From NCBI GenBank assembly GCA_903872065.1, contig CAIQJJ010000597.1, positions 1-35,666 of the forward strand: a stretch of DNA of 35,666 nt. The letters run 5' to 3'. Shown here in pieces: positions 766 through 17,017 of the stretch. This stretch comes from an uncultured Anaerolineales bacterium. Lineage in GTDB: Bacteria > Chloroflexota > Anaerolineae > Anaerolineales > UBA4823. The notes under the pieces are model-generated. The model did not search any database. It was given only the letters and a program-made list of their open reading frames with translations, and was not told where the DNA came from. The position numbers and the translations under genes are program-made. Numbering within the stretch: the first letter of the stretch is position 1; every line of letters begins with the position of its first letter.

Positions 766-3700
766 TTAACCATGTGGCGCCATGGCGGCGATTTTCGCAA
801 GAAACTCACTTAATTCAAAAGGTTTGGTCAGATATGTCAGGTGGTTTTCGTCGAGAAAACGTCGCGTGGACAGACTGACTGTATCCCCGGTAGCAAAGAT
901 CACCCGCGCGGCGGCATCCGGGCTCTGCTGCTGCAAGCTGGCGTAAAATTCTTCGCCATTGACATCCGGCATCCGAATATCTGACATGATCAGATGGTAA
1001 CGCTGCTTCTGGCATAATGCCAAGCCATCCCGTCCATTTGACGCTGTATCCACCTGATAGCCGCGCCGGCGCAGGGCGCGGCTCAAAACGTCGAGCATAT
1101 TCACTTCATCATCAATAATTAAGATGCGAGTATCTGTATGCAAAGCCTGATCAGACAATCCATTTTCAGATTTTAGAGAAGCTGCACTCTCTGCAGCCGG
1201 ATGAAGTTCACTTTGAAGAGGCTGAAAGCCTGACTTCGTCTTTTGGCTCAGCAGTGGGTTTTCCCTGGCAGCTAGAATGGGTAATTCAATGATAAATCTA
1301 GCTCCCTCTCCCGGCGGACTTTCAGCCCAAATATGCCCATCATGCTCACTGATAATGCCGTGACAGATAGACAGTCCCAAACCGGTGCCTTTTTCGCCTT
1401 TCGTGGTAAAAAATGGATCGAAAACCTGCGTAATATACTCTGATGGAATTCCAGGCCCGCTGTCCTGAAAAACAATCCGAATTACCTGCTGCGTACTTTT
1501 CGATCGGCCTAAAAAAATGGATGGCCCAGTTTCAGAGGTGACGTTCAAGTAGCCACGGCTGCGAGCTTTACCAAATCTCGCGCCGAGCGAGGTTTTCTCA
1601 ACACCAGCAGACGGAGCAGCATCATTTTCAGCCATCACCTGCCAGGCGTTCGTGATCAGGTTGATAAACACTTGTTGCAACTGCCCCATATCAGCCAACG
1701 TGACCGGCAAATCAGGCGCCAGTTCCAACGTGAATTGAATATTGTGGCTGTGCAGTTCATAAGCCAAAAGTTCGATGCTGTTTTTCAAGATCTGATTGAT
1801 CTGCACTGGCTTGCGCTCAGGAGGGCGCTGGCGCGCAAAGTTGAGCAGCCCTCGCACAATTTCAGCCGCCCGCTGCGCTTCGGAAACGATCTTGTTTAAC
1901 TCATAGGCTGTATCGCTTTGCACTTCACGCGACTGCGCCATTTGGGCGTAGAGGATGACGGAGGTTAGTGGATTATTCAATTCATGCGCGACGCCGGCAA
2001 TCAGGCTGCCAATGGCCGCCAGTTTCTCGGTTTGAATCAAGCGGTTTTGCGCTGTTTGAAGGATCTTGAATTGCTCTTCCAGGTTTTCGTGCAATCTCTG
2101 GCGGTGGATGGCGCTGGCAGCCATATTGCTGATCGACTCCAGCAAGCGCACATCGTCATCCAAAATGGGCGACTTGCGCCCGATCATGATCGAGCCAATC
2201 TTATATTCTTGCACTACCAACGGTACCGCCGCGATGCCGATCAAAGGCTTGAACAGATCTGGAATAAGTGTGTAGGGATCGTTCGGGGCATCGTTGTTAA
2301 CATAAGTCCTGCCAGAAGCAATCACGCGACTGTTAATGCCCTGGCCAGGGGGAAAACGCCAGTTTGTGCATTCAACCCACCTCCCAAAGCCGCACACCAC
2401 GTAGGCGCTTCCATCCGAAGGGTCCAGGGCGATGAGCATCGCGCCTTCCGCTTTTAACAAACGTGAAACCTGCTGTAAAATGGCTGGCAGCAAAGTGGCG
2501 CTATTTGGAGCCATGCGCATCGCAGACGAGACACTTTCCAGCACCTCCATTTCGAAGGCATATTTGCGCGTCTCTTCGAGAAGTTTTGTCCTGGCGATTG
2601 CCAGTGAAACCAATTGAGCGGCCTGGGTGCAAGCCGCGATTTCTTCCAAGGTGAACTCGTGTAGATGGTTAAAACCGATCAGCACCGCGCCCAATTTAAT
2701 ATTCGTAGCTATCAATGGGAGAGCCAATAAAGCACGCGCCGGATAAGAAGCAGCAACTTGCCCACCGACATACAGAGTATCGGCAATATCACTGATCACA
2801 ACTGGAGATTGAGTCTCTAATACCGCAGCCGGCAAAGTCAGCGCCGAGGCATCTTCAGGAATGAGCCTATCCGCATTCTGCAACACCCCTGAGACAACCG
2901 CCGGCAGAAAACGCGATTGGCACTCTTCCCACAACGTGATGGCGCAGCCATTAGCATGAATCAATTCGCCCATGCGGTCTGCCAGAGATTGCAGCAAACT
3001 GTATAAATCGGGCGATAGTAATGCAACCTGCACAATGTGGTTGAGTGTCTCAAGATAATACTGCCGCTCGCGACGCTCAATTTCCGCCTGGCGGCTGGCA
3101 GTAATATCTCTGGCAATCCCCAAAATTTGCAGCGACTCGCCCTCCGGGGAGGTTTTAAAAACTGTGTCGCGGCTGCGCAACCAAATGAACTGGCCATCTT
3201 TGCGCAGGGCGCGGTATTCAATCTCACAAACTTTGCTGCCATGCTCACTGGCGATACTCGCCAGATACTCTTTAACGCGTAAGGCATCCTCAGGATGGAG
3301 AAAATCAAAAACTGTTTTCTCTGGAGATAAATGAAATACTTCTTCTTCGCTGTATCCGAGGAGAGCCGCCACCGAGTGGTTAATATAGATGATTGAATAG
3401 GTTTGCAGATCGCAAACATAGATAATATCGGGAACCGCGCCAGTAACAGCGGAAATAAAGGCCGCGTTTTCACGCAAACGTTGTTCCGTTTCATGTTTAT
3501 AAAACGTAATTTCGATCGCGTTGCGCAGAGCAGTCTCGTCAAAAGGTTTGACCAGATAGCCAAACGCTTCTGTCAACTTGGCGCGCTGAAGAGTCTCTTC
3601 GTCTGTAGAGGCGGCCAGGTAGATAACCGGAATCTGGACATGGTCATGAATGCGCTTAACCGCCTCAATTCCATCCATTTCGCCGTTCAGGCAAATATCC

Positions 3701-3861
3701 ATAATAATTAAATCAGGGCGCAGCTCAAGCGCCATCCCAATCGCTTTCTCGCCGCTATCCGCAGGTCCAACCATTTGATAGCCAAGCCGCGAAAGCCTCT
3801 TGCTGATATTTACCGCAACCAAGATCTGATCTTCAACCAGGAGAATCTTTTTGGCACTCAT
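766..3861 (-). CDS. Hybrid sensor histidine kinase: REC-PAS-GAF-GAF-HisKA-HATPase-REC
   Basis: N-terminal REC (LIIMDICLNGEMDG), PAS (IIYINHSVAALLGYSEEEVF), H-box GVAHELNNPLTSV, N-box NLITNAWQ, G-boxes DSGPGIP/GTGLGLSI, C-terminal REC (LIIDDEVNML...IMSDIRMPDVNG). Confidence 0.95.
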   Translation of the reverse strand: MSAKKILLVEDQILVAVNISKRLSRLGYQMVGPADSGEKAIGMALELRPDLIIMDICLNGEMDGIEAVKRIHDHVQIPVIYLAASTDEETLQRAKLTEAFGYLVKPFDETALRNAIEITFYKHETEQRLRENAAFISAVTGAVPDIIYVCDLQTYSIIYINHSVAALLGYSEEEVFHLSPEKTVFDFLHPEDALRVKEYLASIASEHGSKVCEIEYRALRKDGQFIWLRSRDTVFKTSPEGESLQILGIARDITASRQAEIERRERQYYLETLNHIVQVALLSPDLYSLLQSLADRMGELIHANGCAITLWEECQSRFLPAVVSGVLQNADRLIPEDASALTLPAAVLETQSPVVISDIADTLYVGGQVAASYPARALLALPLIATNIKLGAVLIGFNHLHEFTLEEIAACTQAAQLVSLAIARTKLLEETRKYAFEMEVLESVSSAMRMAPNSATLLPAILQQVSRLLKAEGAMLIALDPSDGSAYVVCGFGRWVECTNWRFPPGQGINSRVIASGRTYVNNDAPNDPYTLIPDLFKPLIGIAAVPLVVQEYKIGSIMIGRKSPILDDDVRLLESISNMAASAIHRQRLHENLEEQFKILQTAQNRLIQTEKLAAIGSLIAGVAHELNNPLTSVILYAQMAQSREVQSDTAYELNKIVSEAQRAAEIVRGLLNFARQRPPERKPVQINQILKNSIELLAYELHSHNIQFTLELAPDLPVTLADMGQLQQVFINLITNAWQVMAENDAAPSAGVEKTSLGARFGKARSRGYLNVTSETGPSIFLGRSKSTQQVIRIVFQDSGPGIPSEYITQVFDPFFTTKGEKGTGLGLSICHGIISEHDGHIWAESPPGEGARFIIELPILAARENPLLSQKTKSGFQPLQSELHPAAESAASLKSENGLSDQALHTDTRILIIDDEVNMLDVLSRALRRRGYQVDTASNGRDGLALCQKQRYHLIMSDIRMPDVNGEEFYASLQQQSPDAAARVIFATGDTVSLSTRRFLDENHLTYLTKPFELSEFLAKIAAMAPHG

Positions 3862-4032
3862 ACCCTAAGAATACTTTCATCAAGGCAGATATATCATCAT
3901 AGGAAATTCCACCTATGATCATACCCTATTTTGACCAGTTTGTTTTCAATATCTGCCCATTTCGTCAATTATTTACCTCCCTTTTATCATTATTGCTTCT
4001 TGCCACTTTCTGCAAGATTTCCTGAATTGCTT

Positions 4033-4755
4033 CTAAAACGATGCTTTATTGGCTTGAATTTGCTTCTGAACGTCTTCCAATGCCGCTTGAATATCAATCA
4101 TTGAGGTAGAGTTCGCATAATTGGTTAAGTTAACGTCCGCAGCATTGCGCAAAACTTTCAGCACCGCTTCAATTCCTTTAGCGCTATTATAACTGTCTTT
4201 GACAATTTGCAAAACTGTAGGATCGGTGTCTTTTTTTTGCTGAAACAACTCATCCAACAGACTCAACCCGGCGTAAAGCACCATTAAATAATTATTGAGG
4301 TAATGCGACAGCGTGACAACTGTCAGCCGCACCGCTTCGGCAGTGACCAGGTTGCGGCTCAATTCTTCGCGCTCAGACGCCAGACGGCTTTCACGCAACG
4401 CGTTGTCAATCGCGCTCCTCACTTCTTCAGGGGTAAAAGGCTTCCGAAGATAATCACGCACCCCCAGGCGAAAAGCTTCTACTGCGATCTGCTCTGAACC
4501 TTCGACCGTCATAAAAATCACAGGAGATTTACAGGTCGTGTTTCGCAGCGCCGCCAACATCTCCAACCCACTCACGCGCGGCATATTCATATCGAGCAAG
4601 ATCAGATCTGGATTTTGAGCAACCGCAAGTCGCAGGCCAACTTCTCCATCCACCGCGGTCAAAACTCGATACCCCAATGGCTCCAAAATATAAGTCTTCA
4701 AGATGCGGTGCATCTCAGTGCTATCATCAACCACCAGGACTGTTTCTTGAGCCAT
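4033..4755 (-). CDS. Response regulator: REC domain plus C-terminal DHp-like helical region
   Basis: VLVVDDSTEMHR...LILLDMNMPRVSG...YLRKPF; then TVVTLSHYLNNYLMVLYAGLSLL, resembling an H-box. ORF opens at 4776; internal ATG at 4755 (MAQETVL) has GGAG upstream. Confidence 0.85.
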   Translation of the reverse strand: MAQETVLVVDDSTEMHRILKTYILEPLGYRVLTAVDGEVGLRLAVAQNPDLILLDMNMPRVSGLEMLAALRNTTCKSPVIFMTVEGSEQIAVEAFRLGVRDYLRKPFTPEEVRSAIDNALRESRLASEREELSRNLVTAEAVRLTVVTLSHYLNNYLMVLYAGLSLLDELFQQKKDTDPTVLQIVKDSYNSAKGIEAVLKVLRNAADVNLTNYANSTSMIDIQAALEDVQKQIQANKASF

Positions 4756-5539
4756 TGGGAGAATCTCCATCATCAAACGTTAAGGATAATGCGTAAGGAG
4801 GCTGTGTCCGTTCCCGACTGATCGCGCGCGCATCAAAAAGCATTAACTGATCATGGGCAAGGGTTTCGGTAATGAGCGAAAAACCAAAAGCTTTGCGTAA
4901 GAAGATGTAACGCGAGGAAAAGATGAGCGCATTCCACGGTTCGTGAAAATGGATGCACAGCGGGTTGTTGTGTTTGAGAACCAACAAACCATAAGGCGAC
5001 CGCTGATCATAAGCAATAAATGTAAATTGACCTTGCAGTAAGGTGATCTGATGGCTAATTTGAGCCAGGTATACATCAGGCGGCGGCTGCGGCGAAAAGG
5101 CAGCCAACATCTGGAAAATAATCTCACTATCCACCTCTGCCTGGCGGTGATAACCCAATTGATCAAAGAGTTGATTGTCGTTTTTGATATGACCGTTATG
5201 GACGCCAAAGACCGGCCCGGTGTGAATCGGATGGTTATTTTGCTCGTTGGTGGGATCGCCCTTGGTGGGCAAACGAGTATGCCCAAGGATGAGGGTTGTT
5301 TGATCGTTAACTTGATCTAAGAAGCTCAAGTAACGGGGGGTTTCAACAAATTGCGAGGCTGGCAGAGGCGCTTTGTACAGGTCTGTACTCCCATCGCAAT
5401 GCATCACTGCCAGCCCGGTTGCCGCCCGCCCGCGCTCTTCGTTAAAAAGTAAATTGCGGGTGAAGATTTCGCGAATCGCCTGCCATTCCGCCGCGGTCCG
5501 AGATTGAGGATTAAGCAAAATGGCTGCGATACCGCACAT
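4727..5539 (-). CDS. Class II glutamine amidotransferase (Ntn-type) domain protein
   Basis: MCGIAAIL with Cys at position 2, GHTRLPT, NNHPIHTGPVFGVHNGHI, EVDSEIIF: GAT-II motifs. Confidence 0.9.
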   Translation of the reverse strand: MCGIAAILLNPQSRTAAEWQAIREIFTRNLLFNEERGRAATGLAVMHCDGSTDLYKAPLPASQFVETPRYLSFLDQVNDQTTLILGHTRLPTKGDPTNEQNNHPIHTGPVFGVHNGHIKNDNQLFDQLGYHRQAEVDSEIIFQMLAAFSPQPPPDVYLAQISHQITLLQGQFTFIAYDQRSPYGLLVLKHNNPLCIHFHEPWNALIFSSRYIFLRKAFGFSLITETLAHDQLMLFDARAISRERTQPPYALSLTFDDGDSPNGSRNSPGG

Positions 5540-5554
5540 CAGGCTATCCGCTGC

Positions 5555-6145
5555 CTATTTCAAAAACTCGACTTTGCCGGTGTCGATTTGGTAGATGGCG
5601 CCGACCACATTCATCTTGCCATGCTTCACCATCTCGGCCAAGATCGGCTCGCAGGTGCGAATTTTCTCGACGCTCATGCGCACATTGGCAAGTGTAGCAT
5701 TCAACACGGCATCACCCGCCTCGCCCTTGACCGCATCCGCCGCCGGCTTAATCGTGGTGACAATGCTGCCAATATGCCCCGGAACCTCGCCGCCCTGCAC
5801 CGTGGCAGTGACTGCGCCGCACTTGGTATGACCCAGGACCAGGACAAGAGGCACGCCCAGGTGTTCCGCGGCATACTCCATGCTGCCCAAGACCACGTCG
5901 TCAAGGATATTGCCGGCGTTGCGGATAATGAAGAGATCGCCAATCCCCTGGTCAAAGAAGACTTCAGGAGGGACGCGTGAATCGGAGCAGCTCAAGATCG
6001 TGACAAAGGGATGCTGACCGGTAAACACTTCTTGCCGCCGCGCAGAATTTTGGTGCGGGTGTTCGGACTTGCCGCCCGTGTAACGCTGGTTGCCATCCAC
6101 CAACATTTGCAGGGCCTGTTCGGGGGTAACTGAAGAGGTATGCAT
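5555..6145 (-). CDS. Beta-carbonic anhydrase
   Basis: SCSDSRVPPEVFFDQGIGDLFIIRNAGN ... LGHTKCGAV; Zn-ligand pattern Cys, Asp/Arg dyad, His-x2-Cys; SD AAGGAG. Confidence 0.95.
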   Translation of the reverse strand: MHTSSVTPEQALQMLVDGNQRYTGGKSEHPHQNSARRQEVFTGQHPFVTILSCSDSRVPPEVFFDQGIGDLFIIRNAGNILDDVVLGSMEYAAEHLGVPLVLVLGHTKCGAVTATVQGGEVPGHIGSIVTTIKPAADAVKGEAGDAVLNATLANVRMSVEKIRTCEPILAEMVKHGKMNVVGAIYQIDTGKVEFLK

Positions 6146-6178
6146 AAAAGAATCTCCTTATCGAAAAAAAATGGTTGA

Positions 6179-7471
6179 TTAACTGGTAAACACGATGCTC
6201 CCGTGCCGTTCATCCCAGCGGACGCCGCGCAACGCATCAATGCGCTGCAGACGACGCTCTAAATCTTGAGGGGTAAGGAAAAGTTCCTGCGCTGCGCGCC
6301 ATTTCCAGGCTTCCAACGATGTCTTTCCACTCCATTCACCCAGTTCGATACGCTGCATCAATTTGCGATCTGTGTCATCCAGACCCTGGGGGTCTGCGGA
6401 GGCGCGTTCTGACAATAAGGCATCAATTTGCGCCCACTCGTAACCCGAAATGCGCAGCAAAGAGACCGGCCGCTCAGCCAACGCCAACAATACATCCAGC
6501 GCGGAACTGGCGGAAAGACCCTCGAAAACCGGGCAAAGCAGATCGAGCATCTCGTAACAACCCTGGCGCAGTTCTTCGATCACGTTATCATCTACGGCGC
6601 GGGTATCGCTGGTTGCCAGATTGCCATCATTGTTGCTTAAAATATCTAACAAGTATTTCTTGCGCTGCCAGGTTTGGATGCGACCCACATGGACAACGCC
6701 ATACTGACTGAGATCAACGGATTTCAACAATAAGGCCAAAAAGAGAATTGTTTTGGCCGTAACCGAGATTGCAGATAGATCTGCATCGGGGAAGCGAAAT
6801 TCAATATGAAAGGGGAGAACAGCGCCGCTTTCAGCAAAGCGAACGTGTTCCAGGTTGACGAAGTTTTGGTGCTCAGGCACCTTCAGGCTCTCTTTGAGCG
6901 CCTGGTAAATCTTGGACATGTGAACGACGCCTGAAGAATGATTGACAAACTCCAGGTGACTGTTATGCTGACGGCGACGGCACAAGCCGTCGCGGGATTC
7001 GCCGCCGCTGGTCAGGAACTTGAGTTCAGGGCCATAACGTCGCGTGAGATTCCACAAATTTGCAAGGATGATCTCTGGCACCGGCTCCGCCAGAGTGGGG
7101 GTCAATAGATGAAAATGCAGTCCACAGGTCGGGCGCGCCCGCCCCCCCAACGCCAACAACGAATTCATAATGCTCGTATATTGGCGTTGGAGAGAGCGAA
7201 AGTGCGGCTGCCGGCCAATGATGCGAATCTCGATGCCACAATGTTCAGGTTTAATATCCAACACCCCATTCGCGCCCAGACGATCTAAGGTCTCTGAGGG
7301 AGCGAGGGCATCCCGCGACTGAATTTCAAAGTCGGGTCGCGAGATCCCCTTTGGTGTGGCTACTTCCAATTCAGCGCCGATTTTGACCACCCGATAAAGC
7401 AAGTCTTTCCAATAGCTTGCTTCACCAGGGTCCAAAGTATCCTTGCGGCGAAATAGAATTGGGTCTTTCAT
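6179..7471 (-). CDS. Amidoligase-family protein (GCS/GS-like fold COOH-NH2 ligase)
   Basis: IGAELEV, GIEIRI, TCGLHFHL, HQNFVNLEHVRF and HIEFRFPDADLS resemble amidoligase motifs (GxE, CGxHxH, N-x-N, EFR). Confidence 0.75.
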   Translation of the reverse strand: MKDPILFRRKDTLDPGEASYWKDLLYRVVKIGAELEVATPKGISRPDFEIQSRDALAPSETLDRLGANGVLDIKPEHCGIEIRIIGRQPHFRSLQRQYTSIMNSLLALGGRARPTCGLHFHLLTPTLAEPVPEIILANLWNLTRRYGPELKFLTSGGESRDGLCRRRQHNSHLEFVNHSSGVVHMSKIYQALKESLKVPEHQNFVNLEHVRFAESGAVLPFHIEFRFPDADLSAISVTAKTILFLALLLKSVDLSQYGVVHVGRIQTWQRKKYLLDILSNNDGNLATSDTRAVDDNVIEELRQGCYEMLDLLCPVFEGLSASSALDVLLALAERPVSLLRISGYEWAQIDALLSERASADPQGLDDTDRKLMQRIELGEWSGKTSLEAWKWRAAQELFLTPQDLERRLQRIDALRGVRWDERHGSIVFTS

Positions 7472-7500
7472 AGTTGGTCAGCAGATCAGATAACGAACCA

Positions 7501-7974
7501 CTAGGTCAGATGGAAATCAATATCGCAGGTGCGTTTTTCGTCATCATGCGTTATGCCTACCAGATGCGCTTTCTTGCCCAGGCGCTTGTGCAGCGCGGCT
7601 TCCGCGATCATCATCGGCACGCAGGTGTAAGCGGGGATGCCCTCTTTGCGCAGTTCTTGTGTGGAATGCCAGAACATGCAGCCCTCGACAAAGACATCCA
7701 CCTCATGATCTTGCACCTTCAAGCTGGCGTTGCGGCACATGCCATACTCGTCAATCAGAAGGCGCTCAAGCTCAGTGAGGATGGCTTGCGGATCCTCGCC
7801 ATGAATTTCGAGGCCCATCTCGTGTTCCATTTCTTCAATGATGTCCTCGCCGATCTCGTCCACGGTCGCCAGGGCCGATTCGCCAAACAGATCGTACATG
7901 CCTTTTGCAAAGCCAAACAAAATGTCATTACAGAGCTTCAACTGTCGAGCTTTTTTCTGTTCCTCAGTAGCCAT
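7501..7974 (-). CDS. Small Cys-rich protein, V4R/methanogen-output-like candidate sensor
   Basis: 157 aa, SD AAAGGAG; C-terminal half EGCMFWHS...YTCVPMMIAEAAL...RTCDIDFHL resembles V4R-type Cys spacing. Confidence 0.5.
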   Translation of the reverse strand: MATEEQKKARQLKLCNDILFGFAKGMYDLFGESALATVDEIGEDIIEEMEHEMGLEIHGEDPQAILTELERLLIDEYGMCRNASLKVQDHEVDVFVEGCMFWHSTQELRKEGIPAYTCVPMMIAEAALHKRLGKKAHLVGITHDDEKRTCDIDFHLT

Positions 7975-8023
7975 ATCATGTCTCCTTTATAAAGAATAAT
8001 TTTTGATAAGGGTTATGTCTTTT

Positions 8024-8395
8024 TTAATGAGGAATGGCATTCCAAAGCTGGTCTGCATATTCGTTCATTACCATACGCACACTGCCCAGGGTGGCGTCCT
8101 TCGGCACCGCTATCACCCAGAAGTAGGAGCCATTGCCCAGATAGCGAGCCAAAACAATCATATCAGCCGTCGTTGCCATGTTCTCTTGCACACTGCCCAA
8201 AGCCAACTTATCACTGACCTTCGAAGAAAGCTTCATCACCATGGCAAAACGAGCGGACGCGGCGCTGCCATCATAACCTGGGTTGGCAGATGTACCGGCG
8301 ATGGAAATACCATCCGATCCAACAATATCTGTGGCGACGAAATCGCCGCCCAGTTCTGTCCGGATCTCTTGTAACAATTGGTCTATTTTAGCCAT
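8024..8395 (-). CDS. Roadblock/LC7 domain protein
   Basis: 123 aa; LLQEIRTELGGDFVATDIVGSDGISIAG ... DMIVLARYLGNGSYFWVIAVPKDATLGSVRMVM. Confidence 0.85.
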   Translation of the reverse strand: MAKIDQLLQEIRTELGGDFVATDIVGSDGISIAGTSANPGYDGSAASARFAMVMKLSSKVSDKLALGSVQENMATTADMIVLARYLGNGSYFWVIAVPKDATLGSVRMVMNEYADQLWNAIPH

Positions 8396-8439
8396 ACTTC
8401 ACCTCATTCATTTTTAGGGTAGGGTGACAATTACCAACC

Positions 8440-9183
8440 TCAGCGCGGGATGGCTTTTGAGACCCGATCTGCATAAATACGACTCATAAGACGTAAATTG
8501 CCCAGGCTGGCGCTGCGTTTATCCACCACAACGGTCAGGAAATAACGTTTGCTTTCCAAAAAGCGGATCAAGACCAGCGCGTTTTCTGTGGTCAGCAACG
8601 TATCTTCCAATGAACCTGCTTGCAATTTGGCGGCGGATGTATCCACCAGCTTAATCAGCAGGGCGGTCTGGGCGCCGATCGAATCGACATCGGCTTTACT
8701 CGAGTGCATGTCATGGGCAATGCTGATGCCATCTAACCCGATGACAGCAGAAGCCATATAGCCATTCACCTCGTTACCCAGCCCCTTGAGAACTTCTTGC
8801 AGTTGGGATGCCATATATTTCACCTCCGATTGTTTTGTTTCTAATAATGGTGTTTCGCCGGCTGCGGGTTGCGCACGGCCTTCATCCAACCGTCGGGCGC
8901 CTTCCATGAGCAGCCCAGACCAGGAACGCTGAATGCTGGTCATTGGCGGTTCGATATCATTTTCCAGAGAAAAACTTCCATCCTCCCAGGCAAGGATGCG
9001 GTAAACAATTTCTTCCCCGCTCTGCAAACCCATTTTTGCGTGAACTACCTGCCCTTCTTTAAAGTATAAGCTGGCAACGGAATTGTCATGCCGAATGGTA
9101 AGAAACGCGGATTTGCGATCCTGGCAAGTTTGCTGGATTAAATCAGCCACACCCATATCGCGGAGATTTCCTTGCAGAGCCAT
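8440..9183 (-). CDS. DUF4388 (PATAN-like) + Roadblock/LC7 domain protein
   Basis: MALQGNLRDMGVADLIQQTCQDRKSAFLTIRHDN (DUF4388) followed by Roadblock (GYMASAVIGLDGISIAHD...YFLTVVVDK). Start 9183 chosen for SD GGGAG; longer ORF opens at 9273. Confidence 0.85.
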   Translation of the reverse strand: MALQGNLRDMGVADLIQQTCQDRKSAFLTIRHDNSVASLYFKEGQVVHAKMGLQSGEEIVYRILAWEDGSFSLENDIEPPMTSIQRSWSGLLMEGARRLDEGRAQPAAGETPLLETKQSEVKYMASQLQEVLKGLGNEVNGYMASAVIGLDGISIAHDMHSSKADVDSIGAQTALLIKLVDTSAAKLQAGSLEDTLLTTENALVLIRFLESKRYFLTVVVDKRSASLGNLRLMSRIYADRVSKAIPR

Positions 9184-9187
9184 AGTT

Positions 9188-9589
9188 TTACTCCCAATAA
9201 GATTTCCAAACCTGGGTGATATTTCGAATCGTCTGGGTAGTGAGACGGCGGTGGGTTTGGGCGCGTTTGCCAACCATAACCGCCAGAATCAGTTGGTTGC
9301 CGCTCACCTCAAATGGACGACACACCAGGCGCTGCCCATCGGCGGCATTCAAGGTGATTTCATCCGTCTCCATCCCCAAATGCCCGCTGACTTGCGTAGC
9401 AGTCTTTTGCACCAAAGCAACCACGGCGGACTGCCGATCGGGATCGTAACCAGGAGCTGCGGCAAAAGCTATCGGTAAACCCTGGCGATCGGTTAACACA
9501 GAGATTGGAAAGCTTCCCTCATCATTCATTTTGGCGAGAAGCTGGCTCAAAGCCGCAGACCCTGATAATGGATTTTGTTTCATAATCAC
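9188..9589 (-). CDS. Roadblock/LC7-like protein
   Basis: 133 aa; SVLTDRQGLPIAFAAAPG...QLILAVMVGKRAQ, located between the GTPase and DUF4388-Roadblock genes. Confidence 0.75.
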   Translation of the reverse strand: MIMKQNPLSGSAALSQLLAKMNDEGSFPISVLTDRQGLPIAFAAAPGYDPDRQSAVVALVQKTATQVSGHLGMETDEITLNAADGQRLVCRPFEVSGNQLILAVMVGKRAQTHRRLTTQTIRNITQVWKSYWE

Positions 9590-9594
9590 TCCTC

Positions 9595-10182
9595 TTAAGC
9601 AATTTCGCGTTGAACATTGGTCATCACTGCCCGAGTGATCAACTTTAGCGTATCCAAAACCCCTTCCCCACGCACCGCGACCGCATTGACTACCGGTTTA
9701 CCATTCGTGTGAAGAAGATTTTTAATGGCTAATGGATTCAAGGCATCTGGCAGATCTTGTTTGTTAAATTGGACAACGATCGGCATTTTATCGGGATCGA
9801 AGCCAAACGAGCGCAAATGGCTGTACATATCTTTCCAGGCGGCGACGTTGTCGTTGAGCCGTGAGACGCTAGAATCGACGACAAAAACTACACCATCCGT
9901 CCCGCGCAGCACCAGGCGGCGGCTGGCTTCATAATAACTCTGACCAGGCACGGTATACAAATGGATTTTCGGCGTCAAGCCGCCGATTTTGCCCAGCTCA
10001 AGTTGAAGAAAATCAAAAAAGAGTGTACGGTCTTCATGGGTTTTCAAGGAAACCAATTCACTACGTTGATTGGGATTGACCCGTTTGTAGATTTGCTCCA
10101 AATTGGTCGTCTTACCGCTCAACGCCGGGCCATAGTACACCACTTTAAGATTAAGTTCACGATGTTGCCAGTTGATGTTCAT
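9595..10182 (-). CDS. MglA-like Ras/Arf-family small GTPase
   Basis: P-loop GPALSGKTTNLEQIY, HEDRTLFFDFLQLELG, TVPGQSYY switch II, NKQDLPDAL. Confidence 0.95.
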   Translation of the reverse strand: MNINWQHRELNLKVVYYGPALSGKTTNLEQIYKRVNPNQRSELVSLKTHEDRTLFFDFLQLELGKIGGLTPKIHLYTVPGQSYYEASRRLVLRGTDGVVFVVDSSVSRLNDNVAAWKDMYSHLRSFGFDPDKMPIVVQFNKQDLPDALNPLAIKNLLHTNGKPVVNAVAVRGEGVLDTLKLITRAVMTNVQREIA

Positions 10183-10186
10183 GACG

Positions 10187-10747
10187 CTATCCTATCCACA
10201 AATCATCCAGCGCATCCCCGATCAAATCGGATAAGTTATCCTTGTTGATCTCCAGGTTTATCTCCTCAACCTGGGCCGGGACAGTTTTGATGATATTGAC
10301 CGCCTGGCGGCCAGTGTATTGAATGAGCAAGCGCGCCCAACCCAATGGGGTTTCACGCGCGGTTTGGACAAAGAGGATGAGGTTCTCACCGGCGTCAGCG
10401 ATAAAGCTGTTATATTTGGGGCCTTCGCGCAAAATGAGGTGGGAGGCCTGCAATTCGCCGGTCAGGCGGGCAATTTCCTGGCTGGCAGCCAGATCGCCGG
10501 CGACCAGTGAAGCCAGTGCGATCAGGTCGTGCTTGCCGCGTTCTCCCTTATAAGAGATCAGTTGTCCACTGGAATCGGCCATCAGTGCAAACGGCGCCGG
10601 GCAGCGTTCAACCAGCTGCTCCAGCAAGGTATCCAGCGCCCTCTCATGATCAGGATACAAAGTGATTCCCGTGCGCAGTACCAGGGAGGGCCGGTCGGCG
10701 TCAACGTTGATCGCTGAGCCTTGAGAACTGCTCAAAAAATCTGACAT
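10187..10747 (-). CDS. Roadblock/LC7 domain protein
   Basis: 186 aa; APFALMADSSGQLISYKG ... LIALASLVAGDLAASQEIARL ... LILFVQT. Confidence 0.8.
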   Translation of the reverse strand: MSDFLSSSQGSAINVDADRPSLVLRTGITLYPDHERALDTLLEQLVERCPAPFALMADSSGQLISYKGERGKHDLIALASLVAGDLAASQEIARLTGELQASHLILREGPKYNSFIADAGENLILFVQTARETPLGWARLLIQYTGRQAVNIIKTVPAQVEEINLEINKDNLSDLIGDALDDLWIG

Positions 10748-10793
10748 CTTTTATCTCCGATTAGCATTGGGTACGGATTTTCTCACAGCAAGA

Positions 10794-11666
10794 TCAGCCG
10801 AACAATTGATCAAGTTGGGCATCAAGAGAGCCTTCAAAATTTTGGCCCAGAACAGTATCTGCTTGAGCATATTCAGCGGTACTCAATTTCTCGCGCAATT
10901 TGGTGGCGGTCTGTTGTGCGTAGTACCAGACAGAACCCAGGCGGCTGCTAAACTGCCCAACCTCAATGATGATTACCAACAGCAGTTGCAAACCGATATT
11001 GATTACATAAAGATTTTCGCGTTTCCCTTCACGGTAACACAAGTTCATCGTATCTTCAGAACCATCCAATAACCGCCCTACTTCAAAAAGCGACACAACC
11101 GCCCCACCAACCAGAGAAGCAATCTGATCCACCGGGGTTTCGCCCATATCGCCGGCCTGGGCGATGAAATGCCCGCTGCCATCAGCCAGGAAGACGCAGC
11201 GCGCGCCGACTTCCGACTGCAAGGAGTTCAGCAAATTACTGACCTGGCGATAATATTCATCGGAAAGGACTAATACACTGGAATAGCTGGCGGCAGCATC
11301 TTTAACCGCTTCTTTGACGATCTCGCGAAATTCGGTGATCTCAAGAGGCTTGGTCAGGTAACGATAGGCTTGTTTGGCTTGGGCGTCTTTTTGAATGGAA
11401 GCGTTGCCAAAAGCGGTCATCAAAATGACTCGCGCATTCGGCTGCTGCGCCTTAATTCGATCCAATAATTCCAACCCATTCATCCCAGCCATTTTGTAAT
11501 CTGTTACGATCAAGTCGTAAGGATGCTGGCGGATCAGGTCGAGGGCAGCCATGCCATTGGTGGCAGTGGAGACAGAAAAGTCAGGCCCTAATTTCTTAAG
11601 ACTGCTCTTCAATACCGAAAGGACGGCTTCTTCATCGTCAACAATTAAGATCCATTTTTGGCTCAT
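10794..11666 (-). CDS. Response regulator: REC + Roadblock/LC7 domain
   Basis: WILIVDDEEAVLSVL...LIVTDYKMAGMNGLELL...YLTKPLE; C-terminal ARCVFLADGSGHFIAQAGDMG...VGGAVVSLFEVGRLL...NLYVINIGLQLLLVIII. Confidence 0.9.
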   Translation of the reverse strand: MSQKWILIVDDEEAVLSVLKSSLKKLGPDFSVSTATNGMAALDLIRQHPYDLIVTDYKMAGMNGLELLDRIKAQQPNARVILMTAFGNASIQKDAQAKQAYRYLTKPLEITEFREIVKEAVKDAAASYSSVLVLSDEYYRQVSNLLNSLQSEVGARCVFLADGSGHFIAQAGDMGETPVDQIASLVGGAVVSLFEVGRLLDGSEDTMNLCYREGKRENLYVINIGLQLLLVIIIEVGQFSSRLGSVWYYAQQTATKLREKLSTAEYAQADTVLGQNFEGSLDAQLDQLFG

Positions 11667-11755
11667 AGCGGTTACCTTTACGAACTTATTGTATCAAAAT
11701 TCAGGTTTCGCTAAAGTTTGTAAAGGTTAGCAAAGGTAGATGAACCGCTACCTTC

Positions 11756-12538
11756 TTAACCGCTCCATAGATACCCCTTATAGCGCACCGTTTTAATATA
11801 TTGCGGCGAGGTAGGATCAGGTTCAATCTTTTGGCGCAGATGATAAATATGGCCTTTGATAATCTCGCTGGCCTCGGCCTCTTCACAATCGTAATTGAGC
11901 GCTTCTTGCACCAACTGGCGCGGGGTGATGGGGGCCGGCGCGGCGGAGACAAGGGAGAGCAGTAAATTAAACTCGGTGGTGGTTAAATCCAACAAGTTGC
12001 CATCCAGAGTGGCGCTGCGATGATGGCGATCAATCACCAGTTTGCCGGCCGACAAAAAGCGGTCAGAGAGGCTGGGTGGAGCAAACGCCCCGCCGCCCTC
12101 ATCCAGCACGCTGAGGGCCTGTTTCAACTGCTCGACCTGCGCCAACAATCGCTGGCGACGCAAATTTTGCTGGCGATGCTGCAGCCCCTCACGCACCCGC
12201 TGGCGGATCATTTCAGGGGTCGCTGGTTTGAATAAATAATCGAACGCGCCCAGGCGTAAAGCCTCAACCGCGCTTTGCAAAGTGCTGTGCGCCGTCAGAA
12301 TGATCACCACAGCATCCTGCCCTTGCTGCCGCAAATGGCTCATCACCTGCAAGCCATTAATCGGCTTCATGTTCAAATCCAACAAGATCAGGTCATAAGT
12401 AGTCTGGACTATTTTTTCCAAGGCCAGGCGGCCATCTTGAACACTTTCAATCGCGTAGCCATCTGAGCGAAAAGAACGCTCCAGGATAAAGCAAACATCT
12501 GGTTCATCATCAACAATGAGAATTTTGGGGATTTCCAT
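11756..12538 (-). CDS. OmpR/PhoB-type response regulator (REC + winged helix)
   Basis: KILIVDDEPDVCF...LILLDLNMKPINGLQVM; C-terminal LDLTTTEFNLLLSLVS...IIKGHIYHLRQKIEPDPTSPQYIKTVRYKGYLW. Confidence 0.95.
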   Translation of the reverse strand: MEIPKILIVDDEPDVCFILERSFRSDGYAIESVQDGRLALEKIVQTTYDLILLDLNMKPINGLQVMSHLRQQGQDAVVIILTAHSTLQSAVEALRLGAFDYLFKPATPEMIRQRVREGLQHRQQNLRRQRLLAQVEQLKQALSVLDEGGGAFAPPSLSDRFLSAGKLVIDRHHRSATLDGNLLDLTTTEFNLLLSLVSAAPAPITPRQLVQEALNYDCEEAEASEIIKGHIYHLRQKIEPDPTSPQYIKTVRYKGYLWSG

Positions 12539-12572
12539 CTAAATCTGGCGTCGTAAGGACAGGGGAAGTAAT

Positions 12573-13280
12573 TCAAACAGAGAGAATAAGCATGACTCCG
12601 GGCGCCGGCTGCTCAATCAGCGCCAACTCACCAGATTGAGCGATCAAAATATCGCGCACTGGCTGCAAACTGACCTGCAGCAGTTGAACGAATTCAACCT
12701 CGAGCATCCTCTCAGAGGCATCAGGCGAGGCAGAGGGCGGCAGACTAAATGTAAACAACACTTTGTCCTGCTGGGAATACACTTGCAAGGTAAGCTGCTG
12801 CCGTATTTGGGTCAGCTTCAAGTCTATCAGGTTCAAGAGCGTCATCAGCAAAGCCAGGATAATCTCATTCTCCTGGCCCATGACTGAGGCGGCGGCGGGA
12901 TTATGCTCAACCGAAAAAACAACCTCATGCCGTTCCACCTCATGGTGACTGAGTTTCAGAATCGCATCCAACAAGGCCTGGACAGAAACGGCAGACGGTG
13001 GACGAGGCTGAGGGATATACACCTCACGCAACAAGGCAAGCAAGGTCACCACACGCTCAGTCTCTTTAAAACTGAGGTGCAAATAATGCTCAAGCTCATC
13101 GGGATCCGAAGAATCTTCTAAGGCCAGCGCCAGCGCGCCGCGGATGATCTGCATCGGGTTGCCGATCTCGTGGACAATTGTAGAGGTTAAGCGCCCGATG
13201 GTGATCAGACGGCTTTGGCGGCTCGTCTCTTGAATGGATTGAGCAGGTGGATGATTTGCCATGGATAAAATCTCTGTCAA
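12573..13280 (-). CDS. Histidine kinase-like protein with intact H-box and degenerate ATPase region
   Basis: LTSTIVHEIGNPMQIIRGAL H-box; no recognisable DxGxG/GxGxG boxes downstream. Start could be 13280 or 13262. Confidence 0.75.
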   Translation of the reverse strand: MTEILSMANHPPAQSIQETSRQSRLITIGRLTSTIVHEIGNPMQIIRGALALALEDSSDPDELEHYLHLSFKETERVVTLLALLREVYIPQPRPPSAVSVQALLDAILKLSHHEVERHEVVFSVEHNPAAASVMGQENEIILALLMTLLNLIDLKLTQIRQQLTLQVYSQQDKVLFTFSLPPSASPDASERMLEVEFVQLLQVSLQPVRDILIAQSGELALIEQPAPGVMLILSV

Positions 13281-13349
13281 AGATAGAATATAAGCTATGA
13301 TTATATCGGAATTTCACTAAATCCGAGGCGTCATCCTGCAAAGATTTCC

Positions 13350-14951
13350 TTAGATACAACCTTTTAAGGCGTTGACGATCTCTTCGTGAACCGCTCGCTC
13401 CAGGCGATCGGTAATCTCCCAGCGCGGCTTGGCCTTGCCAAAGTAAAAACTCTGCACATAACGGACGCCGACCTCGTACAGACGTTGGAGCGAAAAACGG
13501 CTCTCTTCATCGTAGCCCTCGATAATCACACCGACATCCCCTGGCATCATCAAGGCCAGTTTGACTATGTACTCCACGGTGAAATTGCCGTACAAATCCA
13601 ACAGGGCGTCGCGATCCACTTTGACCAGCGCCGGGCCAAGCCGCGACAGGCGCGATGAGGAAGAATAGCCTATGCCAAAATCGTCAATCGAAAAACGGAC
13701 ACCCAGTTGGTTGTATTTGAGCAACTGCTGGCGAAAAGCTTCGGTCTCATTTTGATTTTTATAGGTTTTGTCAACTTGTGGGGTGGGAAATTTCTCGGAA
13801 ATTTCCAGGTAAAGCTTATTCAGCGGCATGTGGCCCTGCACCTGCAGCCTTTTTAAGGCTTCAAAATACTTGGGGTGGAGCAGCGATTGTGGATAAACGT
13901 TGACGGATAATGGCAAGATGAGGTTTTTCCGCATTGGGCGGGGATTTTTGGGATCCTGGTAATCCAAAGGGTAATTGTTGATGGCAACTTGCAGAAAATG
14001 TAAATCCACTTGCAGAAGGAAATTGCGTCCCCATAGTTCAGCAGCAGCAAACAAGTCTCCTGGCGAGCGCCCGGTTGTCTCATCCCTGGCCAGGGCTTCC
14101 CAACCAAACAGGCTGGGCGCGATCGGGTCGAGGTAAATGATCGGCTCAAAATAGATTGTCATGTTCTCCAGGCGCTGATTAAACAAATGGAACTGCCGGC
14201 CATACATCCAATTGGAAACCAGACCAAATGACCTTTTCAAACCATTGTAAATTGCAAACTCAATCGCCTCGGGCTTTTGCGAACGGGTTAATCCCTCGGT
14301 GGATTGTACGATCGCCCTCAGGATAACGCCAAAAGTGGTATCAATGCCGGTTTCAAAGCTTAAGTTGAGAAACACCAGAGCCTGAAAAGTGGGCGAGTCG
14401 GGAAAAGGAAAGACCACGCAGCTTTGTACATTTTCACCCAAGACGGCCAACGAAATATCTGGCCGGCTGCAAGCCTTTAGCAGCAGTTCGCGATAAGCAT
14501 GATTTTGATTCACCATTTGGGTAAACTCGCCGCTGATTGCCTCATCATCGAGGCGAATTTGCCACTGATCATCCACAAATCTGGCCCAGAAAACATGCTC
14601 TGCCAGGCTGGCTTTCTTCAAACTTAACAAAACTGTATTGACAAAGTCACCCGCCTGCCCGTCCCAATCTCTCATCTCGTCCGCAAAACGCGTGACAAAA
14701 TAATCATATTTTTGCAGATGATGGGCGGCTGTCCACAAACGATACGGCGCGTCCACTGTGGCCTGGCGGATCAAATCTTCCATTTCCTGCTTGAGCTGGC
14801 TGATTAAAAAATTCATATTCTCGATTTGATTCGAGAGTCTGACATCCACTGCTCCCCCATTGCGCGCCTGGCGGAGTTCAAGCAAGTGCAAACTTGTGTT
14901 ATAAATTGCAATCAGGTCTTGTTTTTGCCTGATCAACTCGCTCTTATCCAT
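13350..14951 (-). CDS. EAL-domain (cyclic-di-GMP phosphodiesterase-like) protein with N-terminal sensory region
   Basis: GWEALARDE, LSVNVYP, LYLEISE, SIDDFGIGYSSSSRL, LVKVDRDAL, VIIEGYDEE, VQSFYFG; ATG at 14951 preceded by AGGAG (ORF opens at 14999). Confidence 0.9.
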   Translation of the reverse strand: MDKSELIRQKQDLIAIYNTSLHLLELRQARNGGAVDVRLSNQIENMNFLISQLKQEMEDLIRQATVDAPYRLWTAAHHLQKYDYFVTRFADEMRDWDGQAGDFVNTVLLSLKKASLAEHVFWARFVDDQWQIRLDDEAISGEFTQMVNQNHAYRELLLKACSRPDISLAVLGENVQSCVVFPFPDSPTFQALVFLNLSFETGIDTTFGVILRAIVQSTEGLTRSQKPEAIEFAIYNGLKRSFGLVSNWMYGRQFHLFNQRLENMTIYFEPIIYLDPIAPSLFGWEALARDETTGRSPGDLFAAAELWGRNFLLQVDLHFLQVAINNYPLDYQDPKNPRPMRKNLILPLSVNVYPQSLLHPKYFEALKRLQVQGHMPLNKLYLEISEKFPTPQVDKTYKNQNETEAFRQQLLKYNQLGVRFSIDDFGIGYSSSSRLSRLGPALVKVDRDALLDLYGNFTVEYIVKLALMMPGDVGVIIEGYDEESRFSLQRLYEVGVRYVQSFYFGKAKPRWEITDRLERAVHEEIVNALKGCI

Positions 14952-14999: not shown

Positions 15000-15788
15000 T
15001 CACCTTACGCACCAATATTTACGTCGCCAACCAGTCTGCGGTTCTTCAAAGCGCGCCCAGGCAAACCCTCGCTCTGTCAAAAAGGCGTGGACATCATTCT
15101 CACAATCGTTATTGCCTGGACAGAGAATGATCAATCCACCAATTTTGGTAACACGCGCCATCTCCTCATATTCTGCGGCCGGGTTATCGCCAAAAACATG
15201 GCCGGCCATACACACGTCAGCAAACTGAGGCGGGAAAGGCATGTCAGTGATCAACCCATCCAGTGGATAAACATTCTGCGCGCCGCCGGCGCGGGCTTTC
15301 TGTTTAAGATACTGGCGCAAATTGGCCACCGGTTCGACGGCAAAAACTGCTCTGGCCTGGTCAGCGACCGCAAGGGCCAGCCGTCCCGTCCCTGAGCCAA
15401 CATCAATCACAATTTTATCGTTAAAATCGGTCAAAGAGAGCAGTTCACGGCTGTTCCACCCGAGAAATGGTTGGGCGTCGTAAGCTGCCGGATCCACTGC
15501 ATACACGACCAGATCGGCGATAGCCGCCAGCACGCGCAGTTCAGCCTGGCGAAGCGCCTCAGCCGAAAGGGGAAGCTCGCCGGCAGCCCCGGCTTGCACT
15601 CGATCTAGCCAGTCATTCAGGGATGGACATTTGTGGCGCAGGTACCACTCTACCGTGGGATTGGCTTTGAGCGCCAGGCCCAGGTCGCGTTCCGGCAGCC
15701 AGCCAGGGAACCAACTTAACTGCGCCTGTTCAAGCAAGAGCAGGGTATTGAAGGAAATTTGAGACAGGTCGATCCAATTAAGCGGCAT
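15000..15788 (-). CDS. Class I SAM-dependent methyltransferase
   Basis: KIVIDVGSGTGRLALAVADQARAVFAVEP motif I; methyltransferase-11-like core. Confidence 0.85.
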   Translation of the reverse strand: MPLNWIDLSQISFNTLLLLEQAQLSWFPGWLPERDLGLALKANPTVEWYLRHKCPSLNDWLDRVQAGAAGELPLSAEALRQAELRVLAAIADLVVYAVDPAAYDAQPFLGWNSRELLSLTDFNDKIVIDVGSGTGRLALAVADQARAVFAVEPVANLRQYLKQKARAGGAQNVYPLDGLITDMPFPPQFADVCMAGHVFGDNPAAEYEEMARVTKIGGLIILCPGNNDCENDVHAFLTERGFAWARFEEPQTGWRRKYWCVR

Positions 15789-15901
15789 ACGCTTCTCCTG
15801 AGGCGGCAATTTTTTGCAGTGCGCAGCTTGCGATGTGTAAAAACCTCATCAACGATTGTATCCCAAATTATATACTTTCTCGGCAAAAAATGCTTCACGA
15901 A

Positions 15902-17017
<1,116 letters not shown>

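Follow-up and report, generated by a model that had tools for sequence, protein, structure and literature searches.

What would an amide-forming ligase and a source of ammonia do amid genes for a small GTPase, Roadblock proteins and a phosphorelay? The question is raised by a 35.7 kb contig (the window; GenBank CAIQJJ010000597.1) from an uncultured Anaerolineales bacterium, whose genome comprises 7.5 Mb in 927 contigs. A first-pass annotation had described 15 consecutive minus-strand genes with short gaps in this window, and we found all 15 minus-strand open reading frames (ORFs), from 766 to 14951, at or very near the coordinates it gave. Our comparisons indicate that they include a cassette that is real, conserved and apparently undescribed. 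Its amidoligase and class II glutaminase (GAT-II) are accompanied by a V4R-like protein, and we propose from sequence comparison that the latter is a docking partner or substrate of the amidoligase.

Conservation and linkage of the cassette

With start codons re-chosen by eye, intergenic gaps within the run are 4-89 bp. The GAT-II gene overlaps the gene of a receiver-histidine phosphotransfer (REC-DHp) protein by 29 bp. The hybrid kinase gene alone stands apart, by 171 bp. No minus-strand terminator-like site was found between 7.5 and 8.0 kb, at either the amidoligase/V4R or the V4R/Roadblock junction.

Relatives were collected in two overlapping sets: 18 loci from a pattern scan of 84,980 species genomes and 19 genomes from a profile search of 396 genomes belonging to the class. 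G774, which shares its phylum with the Acidobacteria locus L018, came from later searches. Leaving out broken remnants, there are about 26 distinct cassette loci including the window, and homologues occur in about 25 further genomes from Anaerolineae, Acidobacteriota and two "Deltaproteobacteria" metagenome-assembled genomes (MAGs). The nearest cassette relatives of the window are Anaerolineae (Chloroflexota). Linkage was counted by reading the gene tables of the loci, genome-wide counts were taken from the search results, and L021, with broken amidoligase and V4R fragments, and L022/G439, with a truncated amidoligase, were not counted as full members. The L021 fragments, at 10001-10387 and nearby in a Thermoguttaceae MAG (the amidoligase one covering the first 130 residues), are a decayed cassette remnant outside the main phyla.

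The V4R gene is located upstream of the amidoligase gene in 22 of 22 loci with a visible upstream side, separated by nothing, one small ORF or a carbonic anhydrase gene. Wherever the downstream side can be seen, GAT-II is encoded there, with a carbonic anhydrase gene interposed only in the window. An MglA GTPase/Roadblock set lies no more than 10 kb from the amidoligase in 16 of the 18 loci with enough flank, the opposite of a situation in which the pair would never neighbor these genes. Recurrence in relatives likewise supports the suggestion that the amidoligase and its glutaminase belong to one conserved unit with the GTPase/Roadblock set and the phosphorelay. Since the arrangement recurs in independently assembled genomes, chance and misassembly are excluded. 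Gene order varies, the GTPase gene following GAT-II in G192, L013 and L014 and preceding it in the window; constant membership despite this reshuffling points to function rather than mere hitch-hiking.

Two refinements concern membership. Carbonic anhydrase and the EAL protein had been placed in the core, yet the former is found in the cassette only in the window and L018, and no homologue of the latter was found in the relatives' loci. Without regular recurrence across loci, both were rejected as core parts. In addition, the linkage claimed earlier stands, but it is the V4R-like protein, which had been listed last, and not the GTPase that is the closest partner of the amidoligase. Both Acidobacteriota copies lack a GTPase nearby, and the GTPase/V4R module occurs without an adjacent amidoligase in G460, G309, G486, G554, G544 and G692. 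A second GTPase/Roadblock/DUF4388-like cluster was observed in L019 (17250-21222), on the opposite strand about 5 kb past GAT-II and lacking an amidoligase.

The amidoligase, its glutaminase and the V4R-like protein

Pfam supported the domains named in the first-pass annotation except for the amidoligase and the V4R-like protein, neither of which gave a significant match. The AlphaFold2 model of the window amidoligase (pLDDT 82) was compared with the PDB using Foldseek, and the best 50 matches were all glutamine synthetase (GS), PafA, Dop or gamma-glutamylcysteine synthetase (GCS) structures, the best with E 3e-5 and a template-modelling (TM) score of about 0.3-0.4. Alignment of the family profile to members of PF12224 (Amidoligase_2) by hhalign gave a probability of 90 and E 1.5e-6. 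These fold and profile comparisons uphold what had been a motif-based call. The family does not reach the curated PF12224 cut-off (best relative E 0.045), and a PF12224 search of the source genome gave no signal, as was also the case for control genomes. Invariant in an alignment of 19 amidoligases are G32xE34xE36, E76HxGxE81, C116GLH119xH121 and E224xR226, which are probably catalytic judging from the wider family. GAT-II matches the GlmS glutaminase in the PDB (6e-19), and its catalytic Cys2, Arg and Asn-Gly oxyanion motifs are intact across the alignment, into which the L007 copy was entered minus its first residues. From the chemistry of these enzyme families it follows that glutamine would be converted to ammonia, with ATP-dependent amide formation as the next step.

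The V4R-like protein has no sequence match in Pfam or the PDB. Its AlphaFold2 model (pLDDT 88.5) has a long first helix followed by a Bet3-like fold, with the alpha-alpha-beta-beta-alpha-alpha-beta-beta arrangement of the V4R/Bet3 superfamily. The best PDB matches in Foldseek were TPC6, Bet3 and TRAPPC3 (TPC6/Bet3 at 1.9e-4); H-NOX and BcsD score close behind, and TM scores range from 0.45 to 0.62. Prokaryotic V4R domains are proposed ancestors of Bet3 (Podar 2008, PMC2253512), and an Asgard TRAPPC3 structure has been solved (PMC10933270). Given this fold, the operon unites GTPase, Roadblock and Bet3-fold parts.

This V4R family is distinct. Searching the 396 class genomes with its profile gave strong full-length matches (E < 1e-54) in 18 genomes and, after a sharp gap, only weak matches (E 1e-8 to 1e-13), which were to V4R proteins of other kinds in different gene contexts. 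Family features are an M1-A2-T3-K7 start, a patch of E50, E56, E60, E68, R71 and D75, and Cys99 and Cys118. The two cysteines are common to general V4R proteins, as are G31 and G42, while M1, A2, T3, K7, E50, G54, E56, E60, P62, E68 and R71 were not found in V4R proteins outside the cassette. Across the same genomes, 17 have both this V4R protein and the amidoligase, two the amidoligase only, one the V4R protein only and 376 neither (Fisher P 1e-26). Both amidoligase-only genomes are incomplete, with edge fragments.

The sole V4R-only genome among the 18 positive ones, G460, is 96% complete and has the V4R protein, GTPase, Roadblock proteins, kinases and regulators, with no amidoligase. E56, E60, E68 and R71 are invariant in 31 of 32 V4R family members, and all four are lost in G460 only, where K, D, N and H, respectively, take their places. 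The G460 protein is not notably divergent (69% identity to the nearest member) and retains its N-terminus, both cysteines and other family residues. Divergence is concentrated in region 50-76, which is 52% identical to its nearest relatives, themselves sharing 74% there, and is ordinary elsewhere. Of the 11 singleton losses, four fall in G460, where a share of 4% would be expected; the binomial P is 8e-4, or 1.4e-5 for charged residues only, both values being post hoc. In the V4R model, the positions lost are located in the helix-1/helix-2 loop and helix 2. We lean toward direct V4R-amidoligase contact as the explanation, and the losses point at the E56-R71 patch as the site of contact with the amidoligase or of modification by it. 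A further six V4R copies, with no amidoligase visible next to them, retain the patch (G309, G486, two in G554, G544 and G692), and all five genomes are amidoligase-positive.

The MATEEEKK N-terminus, invariant in cassette V4R proteins and absent from general ones, was considered as an amidoligase-specific tag and rejected. Because G460 keeps it without an amidoligase, a role in the V4R core or toward its GTPase/Roadblock partners is more likely.

Some variation was also observed around these genes. In L007, L008, L017 and L048 the V4R gene is present as two tandem copies, and a further ORF of 142-197 residues precedes the amidoligase; the ORF in L048 matches Protoglobin (1.7e-9) and the other three have no Pfam match. 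The window V4R protein is nearest to those of G554, L018 and L010 (68-72%) and the window amidoligase to those of L048 and L006 (67-69%). With such different nearest relatives, parts of the cassette seem to have been exchanged between lineages.

A proposed mechanism and its alternatives

How could these proteins work together? The first-pass annotation offered two readings, control of an amidation reaction by the signalling proteins and amidation of one of their number, and either may hold. In the scheme that we propose, the OmpR regulator and the REC-Roadblock protein would receive input from sensor kinases and a phosphorelay (hybrid kinase, REC-DHp protein and HisKA protein). The nucleotide state of the MglA-type GTPase would be set by Roadblock proteins, which would also assemble with the Bet3-fold V4R protein; the V4R protein in turn would recruit or present a substrate to the amidoligase. 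The glutaminase would free ammonia from glutamine, and the amidoligase, using ATP, would activate a carboxylate and then amidate it. The most likely targets would be V4R glutamates in the 56-68 loop and helix, or a partner held by the V4R protein, and the amidation state may reset or record the output of the GTPase switch. The data show which genes are present and that their linkage is conserved, together with the folds and catalytic motifs, the co-occurrence of the V4R protein and the amidoligase, and the loss of four residues where the amidoligase is missing; complex formation, signalling direction, ammonia transfer and the target are the parts that we infer. The full reading, a conserved, horizontally spread signalling unit with amidation aimed at the V4R protein or a partner it holds, is held tentatively, at a little short of an even chance.

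Several points weigh against it. The role of every member is predicted from sequence and structural models. The natural experiment in G460 is one genome, its P value was computed after the pattern had been seen, and E56-R71 could bind a third partner lost along with the amidoligase. The GTPase can be dispensed with, as neither Acidobacteriota copy (L018 and G774) has one encoded nearby; in its place are REC-DUF4388 proteins, Roadblock domains, kinases and a regulator of NtrC type. Finally, V4R domains commonly bind small hydrophobic ligands (PMC2253512), and a metabolite target fits equally well.

One alternative builds on this last point: the amidoligase-glutaminase pair may make a small amide or amidated peptide, sensed by the V4R protein as a receptor in its pocket, with the GTPase/Roadblock proteins reading its occupancy. 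Hydrophobic ligand binding by V4R/Bet3-fold domains (PMC2253512) and the cavities in Thor-TRAPPC3 (PMC10933270) are consistent with this, as are the contact between enzyme and V4R genes in nearly all loci, the retention of the general V4R cysteines 99 and 118 and the protoglobin-type ORF near the V4R genes of L048. However, the trio has no conserved companion gene for a transporter, an exporter, a precursor peptide or another biosynthetic enzyme. A pocket would be expected to be lined by the cysteines or the C-terminal half, whereas G460 has lost charged residues of the loop and helix 2. We consider this explanation rather unlikely.

Another possibility is that the pair modifies an unrelated cell component, such as a lipid or an envelope or storage polymer, with the GTPase and phosphorelay only regulating its expression or place in the cell and the V4R protein acting as a regulatory adaptor. 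MglA/MglB systems are known to govern localisation, phage-type COOH-NH2 ligases occur beside GAT genes in podoviruses (PMC6209634), and a distant amidoligase relative (33% over 278 aa) is found beside PF14395 ligases on a phage-like contig. This would leave the V4R residue losses in G460 unexplained, and the neighborhoods have no conserved gene for an envelope, lipid or polymer function; we regard it as unlikely. A loose cluster, in which signalling genes and the amidoligase pair co-travel on a mobile segment without acting jointly, would fit the AT-richer operon, the patchy species distribution and the occurrence of the module without the pair, but is very improbable given that the amidoligase is never away from the V4R gene where the upstream flank is visible, despite shuffled order (G192, L013 and L014 versus the window), and that co-occurrence extends to extra V4R copies on other contigs.

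Other members, origin and relation to known systems

Table 1. Genes of the operon in the window, with predicted products and the evidence for each
Position	Strand	Predicted product	Evidence
766..3861	-	Hybrid sensor histidine kinase, REC-PAS-GAF-GAF-HisKA-HATPase-REC	Pfam
4033..4755	-	REC-DHp protein: receiver and histidine-phosphotransfer-like helix pair (H-x-x-N-N)	Pfam, motif
4727..5539	-	Stand-alone class II glutaminase (GAT-II)	GATase_6 7.7e-15; Cys2, HTR, HNG, VDSE motifs conserved
5555..6145	-	Beta-carbonic anhydrase, accessory	Pro_CA 6e-43
6179..7471	-	Amidoligase, glutamine-synthetase fold, new subfamily	AlphaFold2 model, Foldseek, hhalign, invariant motifs
7501..7974	-	V4R-like protein, Bet3/TRAPPC3 fold	AlphaFold2 model, Foldseek, conservation analysis
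8024..8395	-	Roadblock protein, found with one V4R subtype	Weak Robl_LC7
8440..9183	-	DUF4388-Roadblock protein	DUF4388 1.8e-23, Robl_LC7 0.0024
9188..9583	-	Roadblock protein	Robl_LC7 0.11
9595..10182	-	MglA-type small GTPase	T. thermophilus MglA 3e-60; P-loop, TVPGQ switch II, NKxD
10187..10747	-	MglB-like Roadblock protein, candidate GTPase-activating protein or guanine nucleotide exchange factor	NCBIfam MglB 7.5e-11; PDB MglB 4.3e-11
10794..11666	-	REC-Roadblock protein	Response_reg 9e-27, Robl_LC7 7e-6
11756..12538	-	OmpR-type response regulator	Response_reg and Trans_reg_C
12573..13262	-	HisKA protein without recognisable ATPase domain	HisKA 1.7e-8 alone
13350..14951	-	EAL protein, cyclic di-GMP phosphodiesterase-type, accessory	EAL 1.9e-21

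The GTPase motifs, including an intact P-loop, are kept in 23 copies, and similarity to Thermus and Myxococcus MglA suggests a group 1 MglA. All five Roadblock domains reported earlier are present, though only that of the REC-Roadblock protein passes the Pfam gathering score. Copies of the Roadblock protein next to the V4R gene are 41-66% identical in L010, L015, L018, L023, G544 and G554, the one encoded at 9188-9583 has a counterpart, 31-65% identical, beside the GTPase gene in relatives, and a DUF4388-Roadblock gene adjoins the V4R gene in nearly all loci. The REC-Roadblock protein is a likely input from the phosphorelay to the GTPase, judging from its domains.

Domain content also makes the REC-DHp and HisKA proteins look like phosphotransfer steps. 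The H-x-x-N-N box of the former is kept in 10 of 11 relatives, most of which are REC-GAF-DHp proteins, and the window form is without an ATPase domain. The HisKA protein, which had been read as kinase-like with a degenerate ATPase, indeed has no HATPase match in Pfam and is akin to proteins of L006, L051 and L008. These three loci also encode a kinase homologous to the hybrid kinase at the matching downstream position.

Directly upstream of the operon on the same strand (15000-17005) are a methyltransferase-type gene and a DNA methylase gene with a RAMA domain, and GC content starts to rise here. Two more histidine kinases, of PAS-HisKA_2 and HisKA_3 type, are encoded in the right half of the contig (23942-28672). 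An Rfam scan of the window gave no match and hence no known cis RNA element. PADLOC gave no match for the seven core and accessory proteins tested, and an identity as an anti-phage defence system was rejected on this result.

The GC content of the operon is 0.504, compared to 0.595 for the rest of the contig and mostly 0.56-0.63 for those other contigs of the genome that could be read, which suggests possible horizontal acquisition of the segment. The nearest amidoligase relative outside the cassette is encoded on the phage-like contig of G921 (L163), near clamp loader, single-stranded-DNA-binding protein, helicase and two PF14395 COOH-NH2 ligase genes. With no amidoligase match in INPHARED or in a pattern scan of IMG/VR and only this one phage-like contig, phage origin via direct homology was rejected. 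Podoviruses of the Pa11 type are reported in a comparison in which genes for COOH-NH2 ligase, amidoligase and glutamine amidotransferase are listed (PMC6209634). It is a reasonable hypothesis that a GTPase signalling module took up a ligase/GAT pair of phage type.

Several known systems share parts with the cassette. MglA/MglB polarity systems of Myxococcus and Thermus, with RomR-type regulators, have the MglA-type GTPase, MglB-like Roadblock protein and receiver coupling; the cassette adds a DUF4388-Roadblock protein, the Bet3-fold V4R protein, a phosphorelay and the amide ligase-glutaminase pair, and its cluster is free of motility genes. The conservons (CvnA-D) of actinobacteria are likewise operons of a kinase-like protein, a Roadblock protein and an MglA-family GTPase (PMC4316618), whereas the cassette has response regulators, a V4R protein and enzymes, its host is not an actinomycetotal one, and no CvnC-type protein (DUF742) was found in Pfam scans of the 15 cassette proteins. 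Amidoligase_2 and phiEco32-type COOH-NH2 ligases (PF14395) with GAT-II share the GS fold, motif order and adjacent glutaminase. Unlike these, which belong to phage or peptide-tag loci, the cassette amidoligase is below the Pfam cut-off, has a long helical C-terminal region and is found in a GTPase signalling context. PafA and Dop, among the best fold matches, are protein-modifying members of the same ligase superfamily, but no Pup-like protein or proteasome gene was seen in the cluster, and the partner glutaminase suggests ammonia as the nucleophile.

Eukaryotic TRAPP and Asgard TRAPPC3 combine a Bet3 fold, longin/Roadblock domains and a Rab, and the cassette likewise encodes a Bet3-fold V4R protein, Roadblock proteins and a small GTPase. 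The differences are Roadblock for longin, MglA for Rab and TM scores of about 0.5-0.6, with H-NOX and BcsD scoring almost equally. In TRAPP, a longin/Roadblock dimer is flanked by a Bet3-fold dimer, and the assembly promotes nucleotide exchange on a small GTPase; the V4R, Roadblock and GTPase proteins encoded together here may form a similar complex. Asgard GTPases are reportedly not, as a rule, in operons with such partners (PMC10933270). We think it unlikely that the cassette encodes a bacterial TRAPP-like complex in which glutamate amidation, dependent on ATP and glutamine, switches the Bet3-fold subunit, with a dedicated amidoligase-glutaminase pair probably derived from phage-type COOH-NH2 ligases.

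The literature searched does not mention amidoligase and roadblock together, the 2009 comparative amidoligase study lying outside that search, and the available passages of the literature on V4R, roadblock and GTPase do not describe the cluster.

Bacterial small GTPases with Roadblock regulators are known mostly from polarity and conservon systems without a committed enzyme. The signalling parts of the cassette are of known kinds; what is new is the amide ligase as an obligate member, and its link to the V4R protein. In this GTPase unit, a ligase that forms amides and the enzyme supplying its ammonia are conserved across three phyla, and a Bet3-fold protein is set in a single operon with a small GTPase and Roadblock proteins. 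The role of a GS-fold amidoligase with a stand-alone GAT-II thereby becomes directly testable on three small proteins. Regulatory glutamate amidation, if true, would be a new kind of modification switch.

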